A stretch of DNA of 34,520 nt from Betaproteobacteria bacterium (GTDB lineage: Bacteria; Pseudomonadota; Gammaproteobacteria; Burkholderiales; SG8-41): assembly GCA_003820645.1 (NCBI GenBank), contig RPOR01000017.1:1-34520 (forward strand), in the 5' to 3' direction. Within the stretch, counting starts at the first letter, position 1. Each line of letters begins with the position of its first letter. Positions 27,780 through 33,730 of the stretch are shown here, piece by piece. The translations under genes and the position numbers were made by a program. The notes under the pieces were generated by a model that saw only the letters and a program-made list of their open reading frames with translations, did not search any database and was not told the origin of the DNA.

Positions 27780-28023
27780 CGGTGTCGCCGTAGGCTCTCC
27801 CGCTTGACCGCAGCGAGCGCTGCCGCGGCCCGCATGCGCCGGGCGCGGACATCGAGGGCAACGCCATGCATCAGACACTGCGCAGCGCCTCTGACAAACT
27901 GTCTGTGGTCGCGTCATAATCGTGGCGCTATCCTGCTCCACGGCGTCGCTGCGTTGCGGGTGATTCATCATAGCCCTGACCGCGGCCGATGGCATGAACA
28001 CCCTTTGATTCAGGGAGACTGTA

Positions 28024-28329
28024 ATGATGCGTCTTGTTGCGTTGTTGATCGTGCTGATTCTCGGCGTTGCGACCTCCGGCTGTGATGCCCGCAAGGAAGC
28101 CGGGCCATCGGCCAAACCGGCGGCGACGAAATCCCAGGCCGCGCTGATCGACATCAACAGCGCCAGTGAGAAAGAACTGATGACCCTGAAGGGGATCGGT
28201 GAAGTCCGCGCCGCCGCGATCGTCCGCGGGCGGCCTTTCGCCCGGAAGGACGAACTCGTGCAAAGAGGCCTCGTGCCCTATGCGGTGTACGACGGGATCA
28301 AGGATCAGATCATCGCCAGGCAGAAGTAG
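28024..28329 (+). CDS. ComEA-like helix-hairpin-helix lipoprotein
   Basis: Lipobox 'GVATSGC'; 'LIDINSASEKELMTLKGIGEVRAAAIVRGRPFARKDELVQRG'. Confidence 0.9.
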   Translation: MMRLVALLIVLILGVATSGCDARKEAGPSAKPAATKSQAALIDINSASEKELMTLKGIGEVRAAAIVRGRPFARKDELVQRGLVPYAVYDGIKDQIIARQK

Positions 28330-28484
28330 CCGGCGCCACGGGCAGTTGCGGCCGCGGCAGACTTGAACTCACCGCCGCGGCCCCGCACGCGGCGATACGC
28401 GGCACGCCATCCGGACTCGGCGCCCGAAAACCGACGGATCGCACGTTGGCATGCCGTCATTACGGGACAAAACCTGCAAGCGTT

Positions 28485-28498
28485 TTGATCCAAATCAA
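28485..28498. promoter_or_regulatory. FNR/Anr/Dnr-type box TTGATCCAAATCAA
   Basis: Exact TTGAT-N4-ATCAA palindrome; a TATATG -10-like hexamer follows at 28518-28523, compatible with class II spacing. Confidence 0.75.
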
Positions 28499-28569
28499 TA
28501 AGCTTTTCCTGATAATGTATATGGTGTGTTTCGTAAGCTATTGATTACTTGGCCCTCACGGGGAATCAA

Positions 28570-30162
28570 ATGAAAATAATCCTGACCCGACTGGTAGTTG
28601 CGGTGGTTCTGGGCGCCTGGCTCGGATTGCCGGCCGTGGCCAGCGAAGCAAAATCCGTCAAGCTGACCACCACGGCGGACCACAGCAAATTCAAGGAGTT
28701 GGATAAGGCGTTCAGTTCCGGTCCGGAGGTCACCCAGACCTGCCTCGGCTGCCATACCGAAGCGGCCGGGCAGATTCACCGTACCAAGCACTGGAAATGG
28801 GAGTACCTGAACCCGGATACCAAACAAACGCTGGGCAAGAAGACCATACTCAACAATTTCTGCATTTCCATTGCCTCGAATTACGCTTCCTGCACCAGCT
28901 GTCATGTCGGCTACGGCTGGAAGGACGCCAACTTCGACTTTACGTCCGAAAAAAACGTCGATTGCCTGGTCTGCCATGACACCACCGGGAACTACCGCAA
29001 GCCCCCCGGACTGGCCGGCAATGTAGTCACCAGGGACACTGAATTTCCGCCGGGTTCAGGCAAGATCGTGAAGGGCATCGACCTGACCCAGATTGCGCAG
29101 AAAGTCGGTAAAACCAGTCGCGACACCTGCGGTGCCTGTCACTTCTACGGCGGTGGCGGCGACGCCGTCAAGCACGGCGACCTCGACAGTTCGATGTCCG
29201 CTCCCGAAAAAAGCCTCGATGTGCATATGGACGCCGTCGGGCTGGATTTCACCTGTGCCACCTGCCACAAGACCTCCAGCCACGATGTCGCCGGCAGCCG
29301 TTACACGCCGACGGCGAAAGATACCGGGGGTGCTCACATTCCGGGGAAATCGGACAACGGCAACCCTGCGACCTGCGTCGCCTGCCATGGCAATGGCCCG
29401 CACAAGAAAGAGGCGCGGCTGAATCAGCATGCGACCAAGATCGCCTGCCAGACCTGTCACATTCCTGCCTTCGCGCGCGGGGGCATCGCCACCAAGATGA
29501 CCTGGGACTGGTCAACCGCCGGCCAGGTTGACGCCGAAGGCAAGCAGATCACCCGCAAGGACGACAAGGGCCGCATTGTCTACGAATCGCGCAAGGGTGA
29601 TTTCACGCTGGCCGAAAACGTCATCCCGGAATACGCCTGGTTCAACGGGCACATCGAGTACACGCTGCTGACCGACAAGATCGAGAAGTCCGACCAGCGC
29701 ATCAAGATCAACAAGCTGAGCGGCAGTCCGACCGACGGCAAATCCCTGATCTGGCCGCTGAAGGTGTTCCGCGGTTCGCAGCCCTACGATCCGGTGAACA
29801 AGACGCTGATCACGCCGCACACCGCCGGCAATGACGATACCGGTTTCTGGAAAAACCTGGCCTGGGAGAAGGCGATTCCACCGGGCATGAAAGATTCCGG
29901 CGCGCCCTATTCCGGCAAGTTCGAATTCATCAAGACCGAAATGTCCTGGCCCATCACGCACATGGTTGCACCCAAGGATAAAGCGCTGGGCTGTGTCGAG
30001 TGTCACGCCAAAGGCGGCCGCCTGGCCGGCATCCAGGGCGTCTATATGCCTGCACGCGACGCCAACAGCCTGGTGGACAAGGCGGGCTGGGGCATCGTCC
30101 TGCTGACGCTGATTGGCGTCATTGGCCACGCCATCCTGCGCATCGTCAGCCGCAAGCATTAA
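28570..30162 (+). CDS. Octaheme c-type cytochrome, tetrathionate reductase (OTR) family
   Basis: Eight CXXCH motifs (CLGCH, CTSCH, CLVCH, CGACH, CATCH, CVACH, CQTCH, CVECH), signal peptide, C-terminal TM anchor. Confidence 0.92.
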   Translation: MKIILTRLVVAVVLGAWLGLPAVASEAKSVKLTTTADHSKFKELDKAFSSGPEVTQTCLGCHTEAAGQIHRTKHWKWEYLNPDTKQTLGKKTILNNFCISIASNYASCTSCHVGYGWKDANFDFTSEKNVDCLVCHDTTGNYRKPPGLAGNVVTRDTEFPPGSGKIVKGIDLTQIAQKVGKTSRDTCGACHFYGGGGDAVKHGDLDSSMSAPEKSLDVHMDAVGLDFTCATCHKTSSHDVAGSRYTPTAKDTGGAHIPGKSDNGNPATCVACHGNGPHKKEARLNQHATKIACQTCHIPAFARGGIATKMTWDWSTAGQVDAEGKQITRKDDKGRIVYESRKGDFTLAENVIPEYAWFNGHIEYTLLTDKIEKSDQRIKINKLSGSPTDGKSLIWPLKVFRGSQPYDPVNKTLITPHTAGNDDTGFWKNLAWEKAIPPGMKDSGAPYSGKFEFIKTEMSWPITHMVAPKDKALGCVECHAKGGRLAGIQGVYMPARDANSLVDKAGWGIVLLTLIGVIGHAILRIVSRKH

Positions 30163-30173
30163 GGAGCATGCAA

Positions 30174-30770
30174 ATGACCCAACGTGTCTACATATTCAAG
30201 GGTTTTGAGCGTTTCTGGCACTGGTCGCAGGCCGGCCTGATCATTTTCCTGATGCTCACCGGCTTCGAAATCCACGGCACTCACACCCTGTTCGGCTTCG
30301 AAAAGGCCGTGTACTTGCACACCAACGCCGCCTGGACGCTGGTCGGATTGTGGATCTTCGCCATTTTCTGGCATTTCACCACCGGCGAATGGCGGCACTA
30401 CATCCCGACCCGGGAAAAGATACTGACGATGGCGAAATACTACTCATCGGGGATCTTCAAGCATGAGCCGCACCCGTTCAAGCCGAGTCCGGTCAACAAG
30501 CACAATCCCCTGCAACGGCTGACCTATCTGGCCATCCTGACGCTGCTCAGTCCGCTGATCTGGATTACCGGCTGGCTCTATTTGTTCTATGCCGACTGGC
30601 CGGCATGGGGGCTGGGCAAACTGCAGCTGGAGTGGATTGCCACCGGCCACACCATCGGTGCCTTCCTGATGCTGGCGTTCCTCATCTCGCATCTCTATCT
30701 GGCGACCACCGGCCACAAGATCACCTCGCAGCTCAAGGCCATGATCACCGGCTGGGAAGAAGTCGAATAA
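30174..30770 (+). CDS. Cytochrome b/b6-type di-heme membrane subunit
   Basis: 'FKGFERFWHWSQAGLIIFLMLTGFEIHG', 'LHTNAAWTLVGLWIFAIFWHFTTGEW', 'WIATGHTIGAFLMLAFLISHLYLATTG'; multiple TM histidines. Confidence 0.9.
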   Translation: MTQRVYIFKGFERFWHWSQAGLIIFLMLTGFEIHGTHTLFGFEKAVYLHTNAAWTLVGLWIFAIFWHFTTGEWRHYIPTREKILTMAKYYSSGIFKHEPHPFKPSPVNKHNPLQRLTYLAILTLLSPLIWITGWLYLFYADWPAWGLGKLQLEWIATGHTIGAFLMLAFLISHLYLATTGHKITSQLKAMITGWEEVE

Positions 30771-30812
30771 TCTGCAAACCACCCATTCACCAAGTCATCA
30801 AGGAGTCCAACC

Positions 30813-31205
30813 ATGAAAACCTTCAACATCCTCGCCGCCGCAGCCGTACTGGGGCTGTTCGGCACTGCGTTCTCTGCCCAGGCCTACGATGGCGACTGGA
30901 AGCGCGGCCGCATCTATTACCGCAGTGTATGCACTTCGTGCCACGTCGCGATGCCGGTGGGTGCGATCAACCCGAGCACCAAGACCAAGGCCGAGTGGGC
31001 GGCCTACCTGAAGGCCGACAAGCATGCCAAGGGCAAGGACACGGTCAAGCAGTATGTCAGCAAGGCCTACCGTGCCAGCATCAAGTCGGGCAACAAGGCG
31101 GCGGAAAAATTTGCGAACGTACCGGATCAGGAATTGCTTGATGACCTTGCCGCCTTCCTCAAAAAAGGCGCGAAGGACGGCGACTCACCGGCGAGCTGCA
31201 GCTGA
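30813..31205 (+). CDS. Monoheme c-type cytochrome
   Basis: Signal peptide; 'RGRIYYRSVCTSCHVAMPVGAINPSTKTKAEW'; C-terminal DSPASCS. Confidence 0.88.
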   Translation: MKTFNILAAAAVLGLFGTAFSAQAYDGDWKRGRIYYRSVCTSCHVAMPVGAINPSTKTKAEWAAYLKADKHAKGKDTVKQYVSKAYRASIKSGNKAAEKFANVPDQELLDDLAAFLKKGAKDGDSPASCS

Positions 31206-31245
31206 TCCGGCGCAATGAGGATGGCCGGGAATCCAAGAGACGGAC

Positions 31246-32490
31246 ATGAACGCAGAAAGCGGACCCCGCTGGCTGGCTGGTTTCAAAGCCGACTACACGC
31301 AGATCCTCGTCGAGGAATGGTCACCCTTTGTCGGCGCGTTGCTGCTGGTGCTGGTCATCATCGGCCTGATGCTCAGCGGCCTGGTGTGGGGCGTTTTCGG
31401 CGGCGTGAAGTTCTGGGGTGACTGGTTCAACAATCTGATCGGCCTCGGCCCGCTGCTTGGCGTGCCGCGCGAACTCGACGGTTTCATCATGCACCGCATG
31501 TCGCTGATGAACATCATGCTCGTCCTGGGCGCATTTTCCGCGGCGCTGTTGTCCCGCCAATTCAGCCCCAACCGCCCGCCCAAACTTGAATATGTCTGGG
31601 CTGCCCTGGGCGGCAGCTTCCTGGGTATCGGTGCAGCACTGGCCGGCGGGTGCACGACCGGTGGCTTCTTCAATCCGGTGCTGCATGCCTCGCCGGCCGG
31701 ATGGGCGATGTGGGCGGGGCTGCTGGCAGGCGCAGCGATCGGCCTGAAGCTGCTGCTGTGGACGCTGGAGCATGTCGAATGGGGCATGCAGGCACCGCGC
31801 CCGCTCGAAATCTCCGAGGCCGTGACCCGCAAGTATCCACTGCTGGGCTTGGCGTTGATTGTCGGCGTCCTGGTCTGGGCTACGCAGTGGTACGGCTCGG
31901 CCGATGAAATGCTCGTTGCGCGTGCCGTGATCGTGCTGGCCGGTTTCGCCATCGGTTTCATCATGCATCGCTCGCGCCTGTGCTTCGCCCGTGCGTTCCG
32001 CGAACCGTTCATGACGGCGGAAGGCGATATGACCAAGGCGGTCATTCTCGCGCTGGCGATCGGTGTACCGATTGCCGCGCTGCTGTTCCAGAAGAAAGTG
32101 ATCGACCCCTACCTGGCGATACCCGCGACGTTCTGGATCGGCTCGCTGGCCGGCGGCGTGATCTTCGGCATCGGCATGGTGTTTGCCGGAGGCTGTGCAT
32201 CAGGCTCGCTGTGGCGCATGGGTGAAGGCCATATCAAGCTCTGGGTGGCGATGTTCTTTTTTGCATGGATGGGTTCGACGGCCAGCGCCCTGTTCAAGAA
32301 ATTCGGCCTCACGGCCATCGACGAAACCAACGTTGAAATGTACGAAATAACCGGAGTCGGCTTCCAGGCCTACCTCCCTGAAATGCTGGGCAGCTGGGGC
32401 TGGACGCTGTTGATCGTCGGCAGCCTGTTGCTGCTCTGGTATGCATTGGTCCGTTACAACGAGACCACCGAAAACTTCACCTTAATGTAG
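31246..32490 (+). CDS. YeeE/YedE family sulfur-compound transporter
   Basis: 'GIGAALAGGCTTGGFFNP', 'MHRSRLCFARAFREPFMT', 'GIGMVFAGGCASGSLWRMGEGHIKLW'; many TM segments. Confidence 0.93.
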   Translation: MNAESGPRWLAGFKADYTQILVEEWSPFVGALLLVLVIIGLMLSGLVWGVFGGVKFWGDWFNNLIGLGPLLGVPRELDGFIMHRMSLMNIMLVLGAFSAALLSRQFSPNRPPKLEYVWAALGGSFLGIGAALAGGCTTGGFFNPVLHASPAGWAMWAGLLAGAAIGLKLLLWTLEHVEWGMQAPRPLEISEAVTRKYPLLGLALIVGVLVWATQWYGSADEMLVARAVIVLAGFAIGFIMHRSRLCFARAFREPFMTAEGDMTKAVILALAIGVPIAALLFQKKVIDPYLAIPATFWIGSLAGGVIFGIGMVFAGGCASGSLWRMGEGHIKLWVAMFFFAWMGSTASALFKKFGLTAIDETNVEMYEITGVGFQAYLPEMLGSWGWTLLIVGSLLLLWYALVRYNETTENFTLM

Positions 32491-32499
32491 GAGCGCATC

Positions 32500-33624
32500 A
32501 TGAACACGAAACGCATCACCCTGTTGGCTGCAATCATTGCGGGCCTGGCGGCCACGCCGCTCGTTTATCCCGTTGTCGCCCATGGTGCCGATACCGCCGC
32601 CATTCAGGTCAAGGAGGGCTATTACAAGACACTGGTCGATTATGACTATGTGCGCCAGAACGTCGAAATTCCGCCCAAAAAGGGCGTAATGATCATTGAT
32701 TCGCGGCCGGCGGCACGCCAATACGACCCCGGTCATATTCCGGGCGCAGTGAACATTCCCGACAGCCAGTTCGACAAGCAGGTTGCGAAACTGCCGAGCG
32801 ACAAATCGACACTGCTGCTGTTCTACTGCGGCGGGCTGGAGTGCATGTTGAGCCACAATTCGGCGGCGAAGGCCGAAAAGCTGGGCTACACCAATATCAA
32901 GGTCTACGCGGCCGGCATGCCTGACTGGAAGGCCCGGGGTGGGCGGATGTCCGTGTCCGCTGCCCATATCAAGAAGCTGATCGCGGACAAGGCCAGCTTG
33001 GTGCTGATCGATGCGCGGCCGAAGCGGGTGGCCGACAAGGGCATGATTCCCGGCGCGCTCAATATCTCCGATACCGAGTTCGACAAAAACATCGCCAGGC
33101 TGCCCGCCGACAAGGCTGCGCTGCTGATCTACTACTGCGGCGGTCTCGAGTGCGTGCTGTCGGAGAAATCCGCAGAGAAGGCGAGGCAGCTCGGCTATAC
33201 CAATGTGCTGACCTATCCCCCCGGCTATCCGGAGTGGGAAAAACTGCATGGCGCAGCTGCCGTGGCCGCTGCAGCACCAGTGCTTGCCGCAGGCAAGGAG
33301 AAAGGGTCGGTCAGCGTCGCTTCCTTCGAGAAAATCTGGAAGGAAAATCCCGCGTCAGTGATGTTGGTCGATGTGCGTGATGCGAAGGAGTTCGCCCAGG
33401 GCACGATTACCGGTGCGGTCAACCTGCCGATCAACGATCTCGAGAAAAAGATCGGCACACTGCCCACCGACAAGCCGGTGATCTTCATTTGCGGCACTGG
33501 CGCCCGCTCCGGCGAAGCTTTTGACATGGTGCAACTGCTGCGTCCCGAAGTGAAGGCCTCGTTCATCGACGCCGATATCAAGTTTGACGGCAACGGTGCT
33601 TACAGAATGGCGGAGAAGAAATAG
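32500..33624 (+). CDS. Periplasmic protein with three rhodanese domains
   Basis: Signal peptide; 'MIIDSRPAARQYDPGHIPGAVNIP...YCGGLEC', 'LVLIDARPKRVADKGMIPGALNIS...YCGGLEC', 'VMLVDVRDAKEFAQGTITGAVNLP...ICGTGARSG'. Confidence 0.93.
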   Translation: MNTKRITLLAAIIAGLAATPLVYPVVAHGADTAAIQVKEGYYKTLVDYDYVRQNVEIPPKKGVMIIDSRPAARQYDPGHIPGAVNIPDSQFDKQVAKLPSDKSTLLLFYCGGLECMLSHNSAAKAEKLGYTNIKVYAAGMPDWKARGGRMSVSAAHIKKLIADKASLVLIDARPKRVADKGMIPGALNISDTEFDKNIARLPADKAALLIYYCGGLECVLSEKSAEKARQLGYTNVLTYPPGYPEWEKLHGAAAVAAAAPVLAAGKEKGSVSVASFEKIWKENPASVMLVDVRDAKEFAQGTITGAVNLPINDLEKKIGTLPTDKPVIFICGTGARSGEAFDMVQLLRPEVKASFIDADIKFDGNGAYRMAEKK

Positions 33625-33639
33625 CGTTTCCATCCGCGG

Positions 33640-33679
33640 CGCAGCTGTCCCTGACCGATCCCGGCCCGGGACAGCTGCG
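33640..33679. repeat. 12-bp perfect inverted repeat CGCAGCTGTCCC...GGGACAGCTGCG between convergent genes
   Basis: Direct reading; no strong T tract, so possibly a bidirectional transcription-end structure. Confidence 0.6.
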
Positions 33680-33730
33680 GAGTGAAGGCAGCCAACGCGG
33701 CCCCGCAGCGGGCGCGTCGGTCGCGTACCG

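Follow-up and report, generated by a model that had tools for sequence, protein, structure and literature searches.

Within the window, the whole 34,520-nucleotide stretch of DNA that was analysed, an operon encodes an octaheme cytochrome of the OTR family together with a cytochrome b561, a monoheme cytochrome c, a YeeE/YedE-family transporter and a triple-domain rhodanese (Table 1). With a probability of about one half, we infer that it is a periplasmic module for quinone-linked sulfur redox chemistry, induced under anaerobic conditions, which delivers sulfane sulfur inward; the substrate, the direction, the order of transfer and the regulation are all part of this inference. In agreement with the five co-directional, tightly spaced genes described at 28570-33624 in an earlier note on this DNA, all five are present on the + strand, separated by gaps of ~10-42 bp. 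All five reading frames are intact and retain K153 and the key cysteines. OTR, cytochrome b561, YeeE/YedE and the rhodanese are firmly assigned to their families, cytochrome c less so. As a single system the five-gene set seems to be undescribed, as a full-text search of open-licence papers found no description of it. New here are an FNR/ANR-type box, a cytochrome c that lacks a conserved Met and has an invariant C-terminal Cys, two C-x4-C loops in the rhodanese, and an empty insertion site in related genomes.

Table 1. Positions of the operon genes and associated features in the window.
Feature	Position	Strand	Description
OTR, octaheme c-type cytochrome	28570..30162	+	530 aa, signal peptide, eight CXXCH, C-terminal membrane anchor
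Cytochrome b561, PhsC/FdnI/HydC-like	30174..30770	+	PF01292; probable quinone-reactive OTR partner
Periplasmic monoheme cytochrome c	30813..31205	+	PF13442
YeeE/YedE-family sulfur transporter	31246..32490	+	PF04143, two stretches
Periplasmic triple-domain rhodanese	32500..33624	+	PF00581, three stretches
FNR/ANR/DNR-type predicted operator TTGATCCAAATCAA	28485..28498	+	72 bp before OTR start
ComEA-like HHH gene	28024-28329		within inserted segment
Acquired segment, ~5.95 kb	27780..33730	.	operon + ComEA-like HHH gene; empty site in congeners

An OTR clade linked to sulfur-handling genes

The octaheme cytochrome scores 636.5 bits against the OTR model TIGR04315 (cut-off 375, model positions 1-440), and its residues 45-486, almost the full length, align with the Shewanella oneidensis OTR (1SP3) with an E-value of 4e-112. 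Lys153 (1SP3 numbering), which we take from the 2004 structure to be the active-site heme ligand, is conserved in all 84 OTRs of the clade described below and in all 37 others (121/121). Eight CXXCH motifs are found in 81 of 82 clade rows, and a C-terminal hydrophobic anchor in 76 of 82. By its sequence features the window protein is an OTR-family member with a predicted activity, and the tetrathionate reductase family named in the earlier note is confirmed, including the diagnostic lysine. The structure of OTR was reportedly solved in 2004, and the protein is said to reduce several small molecules in vitro; we know of no settled natural role.

The Shewanella protein shares the family, the eight CXXCH motifs and the invariant Lys153. 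Three Shewanella-like genomes, like the window, also have a related cytochrome c with the conserved His and C-terminal Cys near OTR. However, the Shewanella-like loci have none of the membrane anchor, cytochrome b561, YeeE and rhodanese that accompany the window OTR. In lucinid symbionts otr is adjoined by SoxYZ (PMC11237559); sulfur-carrier genes beside otr in sulfur oxidisers resemble the window operon, whereas a cytochrome b-cytochrome c-YeeE-rhodanese operon is not described in the parts of that paper drawn on here.

A scan of 84,980 species genomes returned 174 relatives, of which the best 80 were kept with flanks of up to 10 kb. In most of these best 80 of 174, OTR has genes for cytochrome b, cytochrome c, YeeE and a rhodanese as neighbours. 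Their arrangement varies: OTR-b-c-YeeE-rhodanese; c-rhodanese-OTR-b; OTR-b with divergent YeeE and c genes; and a version in which two additional half genes of the YeeE type separate c from YeeE. Chance can hardly explain the grouping, as dozens of other genomes contain all five proteins together. As a counterweight to this selection of close relatives, 399 phylum-sampled genomes were searched with TIGR04315, and 45 of them contained an OTR over the cut-off; contexts were fetched for 40 of these loci. Open reading frames in the compared loci come from a simple caller and HMMs built for the analysis, and many loci are from metagenome-assembled genomes.

In a tree of 121 OTRs, 84 fall on one side of a branch with a FastTree support of 95; the same split was obtained with IQ-TREE in quick mode on 71 rows (support 89). 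In 76 members of this clade OTR is linked to cytochrome c plus YeeE and/or rhodanese; the remaining eight lie at a contig edge. The neighbourhood, whose conservation the earlier note had proposed to check, is therefore kept in 76/76 clade loci with readable flanks, well beyond the window genome. The clade contains every YeeE-linked OTR and all but one rhodanese-linked OTR. That exception (L142) is the only linked one among the 37 OTRs outside, 25 of which have at least 5 kb of readable sequence on both sides; the outside OTRs otherwise stand with cytochrome b only or, in three genomes, with a related cytochrome c. OTR and cytochrome b form a widespread core, which the sulfur-handling genes joined in one lineage.

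Some loci carry further genes. Second YeeE-type halves, DsrE-like, SoxY and FCSD genes are found near some copies. At L057 a second OTR-cytochrome b pair, 54-59% identical to that of the window, is found on the opposite strand ~4 kb away from the first. A complete genome (G219; L113, L114) carries two OTR copies, of which one belongs to a full five-gene set and the other is accompanied by cytochrome b alone.

Among genomes of the clade, DsrA was found in 39/50 and SoxB in 41/50, and both in 4/4 further complete genomes; in the 21 OTR genomes outside the clade the numbers were 8 and 6. These were counted by hand from tables, a strong match being taken as present and DsrA fragments included. Both Dsr and Sox are present in most clade hosts, which are likely sulfur oxidisers. 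DsrA is absent from 8 of 12 genomes of loci without YeeE vs 4 of 43 with it (Fisher p 1.5e-4); a phylogeny-aware test gave three pairs for and none against, which is not significant given the few independent events. In the window genome (92% completeness) neither DsrA nor SoxB was found. Its contig C138 (L174, 1451-3547) has a run of soxY, soxZ, soxX and soxA that includes no soxB; here soxY matches the model of the AACIE-arm paralogue and soxZ, at 70.7 bits, stays just under the cut-off of 76.

Probable electron-transfer and sulfur-transfer partners

The cytochrome b561 matches PF01292 (E 1.4e-26) and the thiosulfate reductase cytochrome b model PRK15006 (E 1e-33, below the model cut-off). 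A cytochrome b gene adjoins OTR in nearly all loci within and outside the clade; the exceptions are the Shewanella-like genomes, whose OTRs also lack the membrane anchor. The cytochrome c is only just over the Pfam cut-off for PF13442. Besides its CXXCH it has a His that never varies (DKHAKGKD) and lacks a conserved Met; the C-terminal Cys in D-G/S-D-x-P-A-x-C-S/G is likewise invariant. Relatives were found in 7 of 399 phylum genomes, all seven OTR carriers with the gene beside OTR; three rows of the query came from OTR-carrying phylum genomes, and no OTR-free genome matched. The AF2 model (pLDDT 87.9) gave no significant PDB match in a fold search, and viral contigs held no relatives. The C-terminal Cys (DGDxPAxCS) is common to the window protein, A1 and the ~30%-identical OTR neighbours in Shewanella-like genomes (L120, L122, L133).

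The YeeE/YedE protein matches PF04143 with an E-value of 3.6e-41. Its invariant cysteines in GGCTTGG, RLCFARAF and AGGCASG (53/53) correspond to the conserved relay cysteines of TsuA, to whose structure (6LEO) it aligns with an E-value of 3.6e-19 in two blocks of opposite order, i.e. with swapped halves. PF04143 and the three matching Cys motifs are common to the window protein, TsuA/YeeE and the SoxT importers (PMC11582611). In contrast to these, the window protein has its halves in opposite order, low TsuA scores and no fused TsuB, and it lies in an OTR operon instead of an assimilatory or sox/shdr cluster. As TsuA the protein was rejected, since the scores against the NCBIfam TsuA models (107 bits vs a cut-off of 400, and 76 vs 645) are far too low and the halves are reversed; it is classified as YeeE/YedE-family only, which leaves the label 'thiosulfate-type' of the earlier note unproven.

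Two of the three rhodanese loops are of the C-x4-C type (CGGLEC) and the third is canonical (CGTGARS), with 98-100% conservation of the loop cysteines across 65 loci. Its AF2 model (pLDDT 89.1) matched rhodanese folds in a structure search. Of the 399 phylum genomes, five have the triple rhodanese, and each of these five also carries OTR. The best curated relative is TsoB, a selenoprotein resembling a rhodanese/DsbD fusion (PMC13188914), but at 123 bits against NF045694 (cut-off 805) and with Cys in both Sec places (UxxxxU) an assignment as TsoB was rejected. By motif spacing, C-x4-C in the window protein appears to correspond to U-x4-U in TsoB; the Tso operon consists of three selenoprotein genes as described (PMC13188914), whereas the window rhodanese uses Cys.

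A selenoprotein review lists Sec-containing members of OTR, YeeE/YedE (GUxSG) and TsoB (UxxxxU). The window counterparts are GCASG in YeeE and C-x4-C in the rhodanese; as selenocysteine is possible at these positions elsewhere, this suggests redox-active cysteines here. The window genome may make selenoproteins, given a SelB over the cut-off (contig C3, 49673-51556). The speculative selenium link of the earlier note was nevertheless dropped: the operon genes use Cys and have no in-frame TGA, and nothing ties the operon to selenium.

An empty insertion site and a predicted anaerobic operator

OTR was found in none of 18/18 congeners. In three of them the DUF1499-like left and decarboxylase-like right flank genes adjoin directly, 31-55 bp apart between aligned blocks, hence a ~5.95 kb segment has been inserted in the window genome. 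The gene downstream of the operon is 68-91% identical in all 18 congeners and therefore native. The empty site shows that the operon was acquired by insertion. Composition was set aside as evidence for transfer: GC is slightly low (0.602 vs 0.635), but third-position GC is not distinct, so the acquisition is argued from the empty site. Another soil genome has a near copy with 91-99% identity. The ComEA-like HHH gene has no homologue in the other loci and was left out of the module.

The perfect TTGATnnnnATCAA box upstream of OTR is the only match in the window, where 0.01 would be expected. Upstream of the clade OTRs, 34 of 82 loci have the box at ≤1 mismatch, 12 of them perfect, compared with 1.2% and 0.09% of background windows, respectively; outside the clade it was found in 2 of 36 upstream regions. 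The enrichment p of 1e-38 is overstated, since related sequences are not independent, though the enrichment is still large. In the clade the box mostly lies 150-190 bp before the aligned protein start. A box upstream that recurs in relatives is the pattern of an FNR/ANR regulon, and judged by sequence the operon is probably switched on without oxygen.

Proposed function and alternatives

In the proposed module, the lysine-ligated heme of the membrane-anchored OTR would be the site where thiosulfate and tetrathionate (or a comparable sulfane-sulfur oxyanion) are interconverted. Electrons would pass between the enzyme and the quinone pool by way of cytochrome b561 and the dedicated cytochrome c with its single heme. 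The triple rhodanese would take up the sulfane sulfur of the product as Cys persulfides, from which YeeE/YedE could carry it into the cytoplasm, and in most hosts reverse Dsr or another pathway might oxidise it there. The oxidoreductase part is likened to PhsABC and TsdAB, the import part to SoxT and TsuA. The sulfur and quinone reading of the earlier note gains support from the cytochrome b, the conserved cysteines, the co-occurrence of DsrA and SoxB, and the extra sulfur-transfer genes in some loci; its 'complete module' was too strong, as Dsr, Sox or something similar is needed to finish the pathway. Several points weigh against the proposed module. Tetrathionate may not be the OTR substrate, given the reported reduction of nitrite and hydroxylamine by the Shewanella protein, and reduction of tetrathionate would be odd where energy comes from sulfur oxidation. 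The window genome lacks DsrA and SoxB, YeeE is missing from 21/76 linked loci and under the TsuA cut-offs where present in the window, and the YeeE-DsrA association stems from few independent events.

We judge net tetrathionate reduction to be slightly more likely than thiosulfate oxidation. The same module could run oxidatively: OTR would then act as a thiosulfate (or sulfane-sulfur) dehydrogenase that reduces quinone and supplies electrons to nitrate or oxygen respiration, comparable to TsdA and DoxDA. Cytochromes b of this family work both in quinone reduction (FdnI, HydC) and in quinol oxidation (PhsC), most hosts, carrying both Dsr and Sox, are likely sulfur oxidisers, and an anaerobic box is compatible with nitrate-dependent sulfur oxidation. 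We consider this direction somewhat doubtful, as a quinone-linked thiosulfate-to-tetrathionate step by itself needs no rhodanese and importer, and the OTR activities named in two titles cited by PMC11237559, Mowat 2004 and Atkinson 2007, are reductions. A title quoted there (ref. 85) states that purified Shewanella OTR also reduces nitrite and hydroxylamine. The window OTR may accordingly be a detoxifying or respiratory reductase of these compounds, with the sulfur genes merely sharing its anaerobic operon. The linkage of YeeE, rhodanese and a dedicated cytochrome c throughout the clade, their genome-wide co-occurrence and the extra sulfur-transfer genes near some copies make this unlikely, even though the TTGATnnnnATCAA box is also recognised by NO-sensing DNR-type regulators.

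The absence of the operon from 18 congeners, its insertion at an otherwise empty site and the lack of DsrA and SoxB would also fit a nonfunctional or recently acquired passenger that is active in other hosts only. Yet the five intact frames with K153 and the key cysteines, the perfect FNR-type box, the 91-99% identical copy in another soil genome and the SoxXAYZ genes of the window genome render a passenger improbable. There is also a small chance that the system is carrier-bound: the substrate sulfur would be held covalently, comparable to SoxY, by the invariant C-terminal Cys of cytochrome c, by the C-x4-C loops of the rhodanese or by both, and OTR would act on a protein-bound thiosulfonate or persulfide instead of free tetrathionate. 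The small cytochrome would then carry both electrons and sulfur, which would explain the unsettled physiological role of OTR.

For the module with free tetrathionate or a similar oxyanion, the association of a single OTR clade with a predicted anaerobic operator, a dedicated cytochrome c, a periplasmic sulfurtransferase and a sulfur importer gives OTR a concrete, testable role. The gene set may serve as a marker for a possible sulfane-sulfur route in Sulfuritalea, Rhodoferax, Sulfuricella, Aromatoleum and relatives from low-oxygen waters and sediments. Two extra YeeE/YedE-type genes lie inside the operon in about half of the Sulfuritalea-type loci; at L003 and L004 they are small genes between cytochrome c and YeeE, both matching PF04143 and one also DUF6691.
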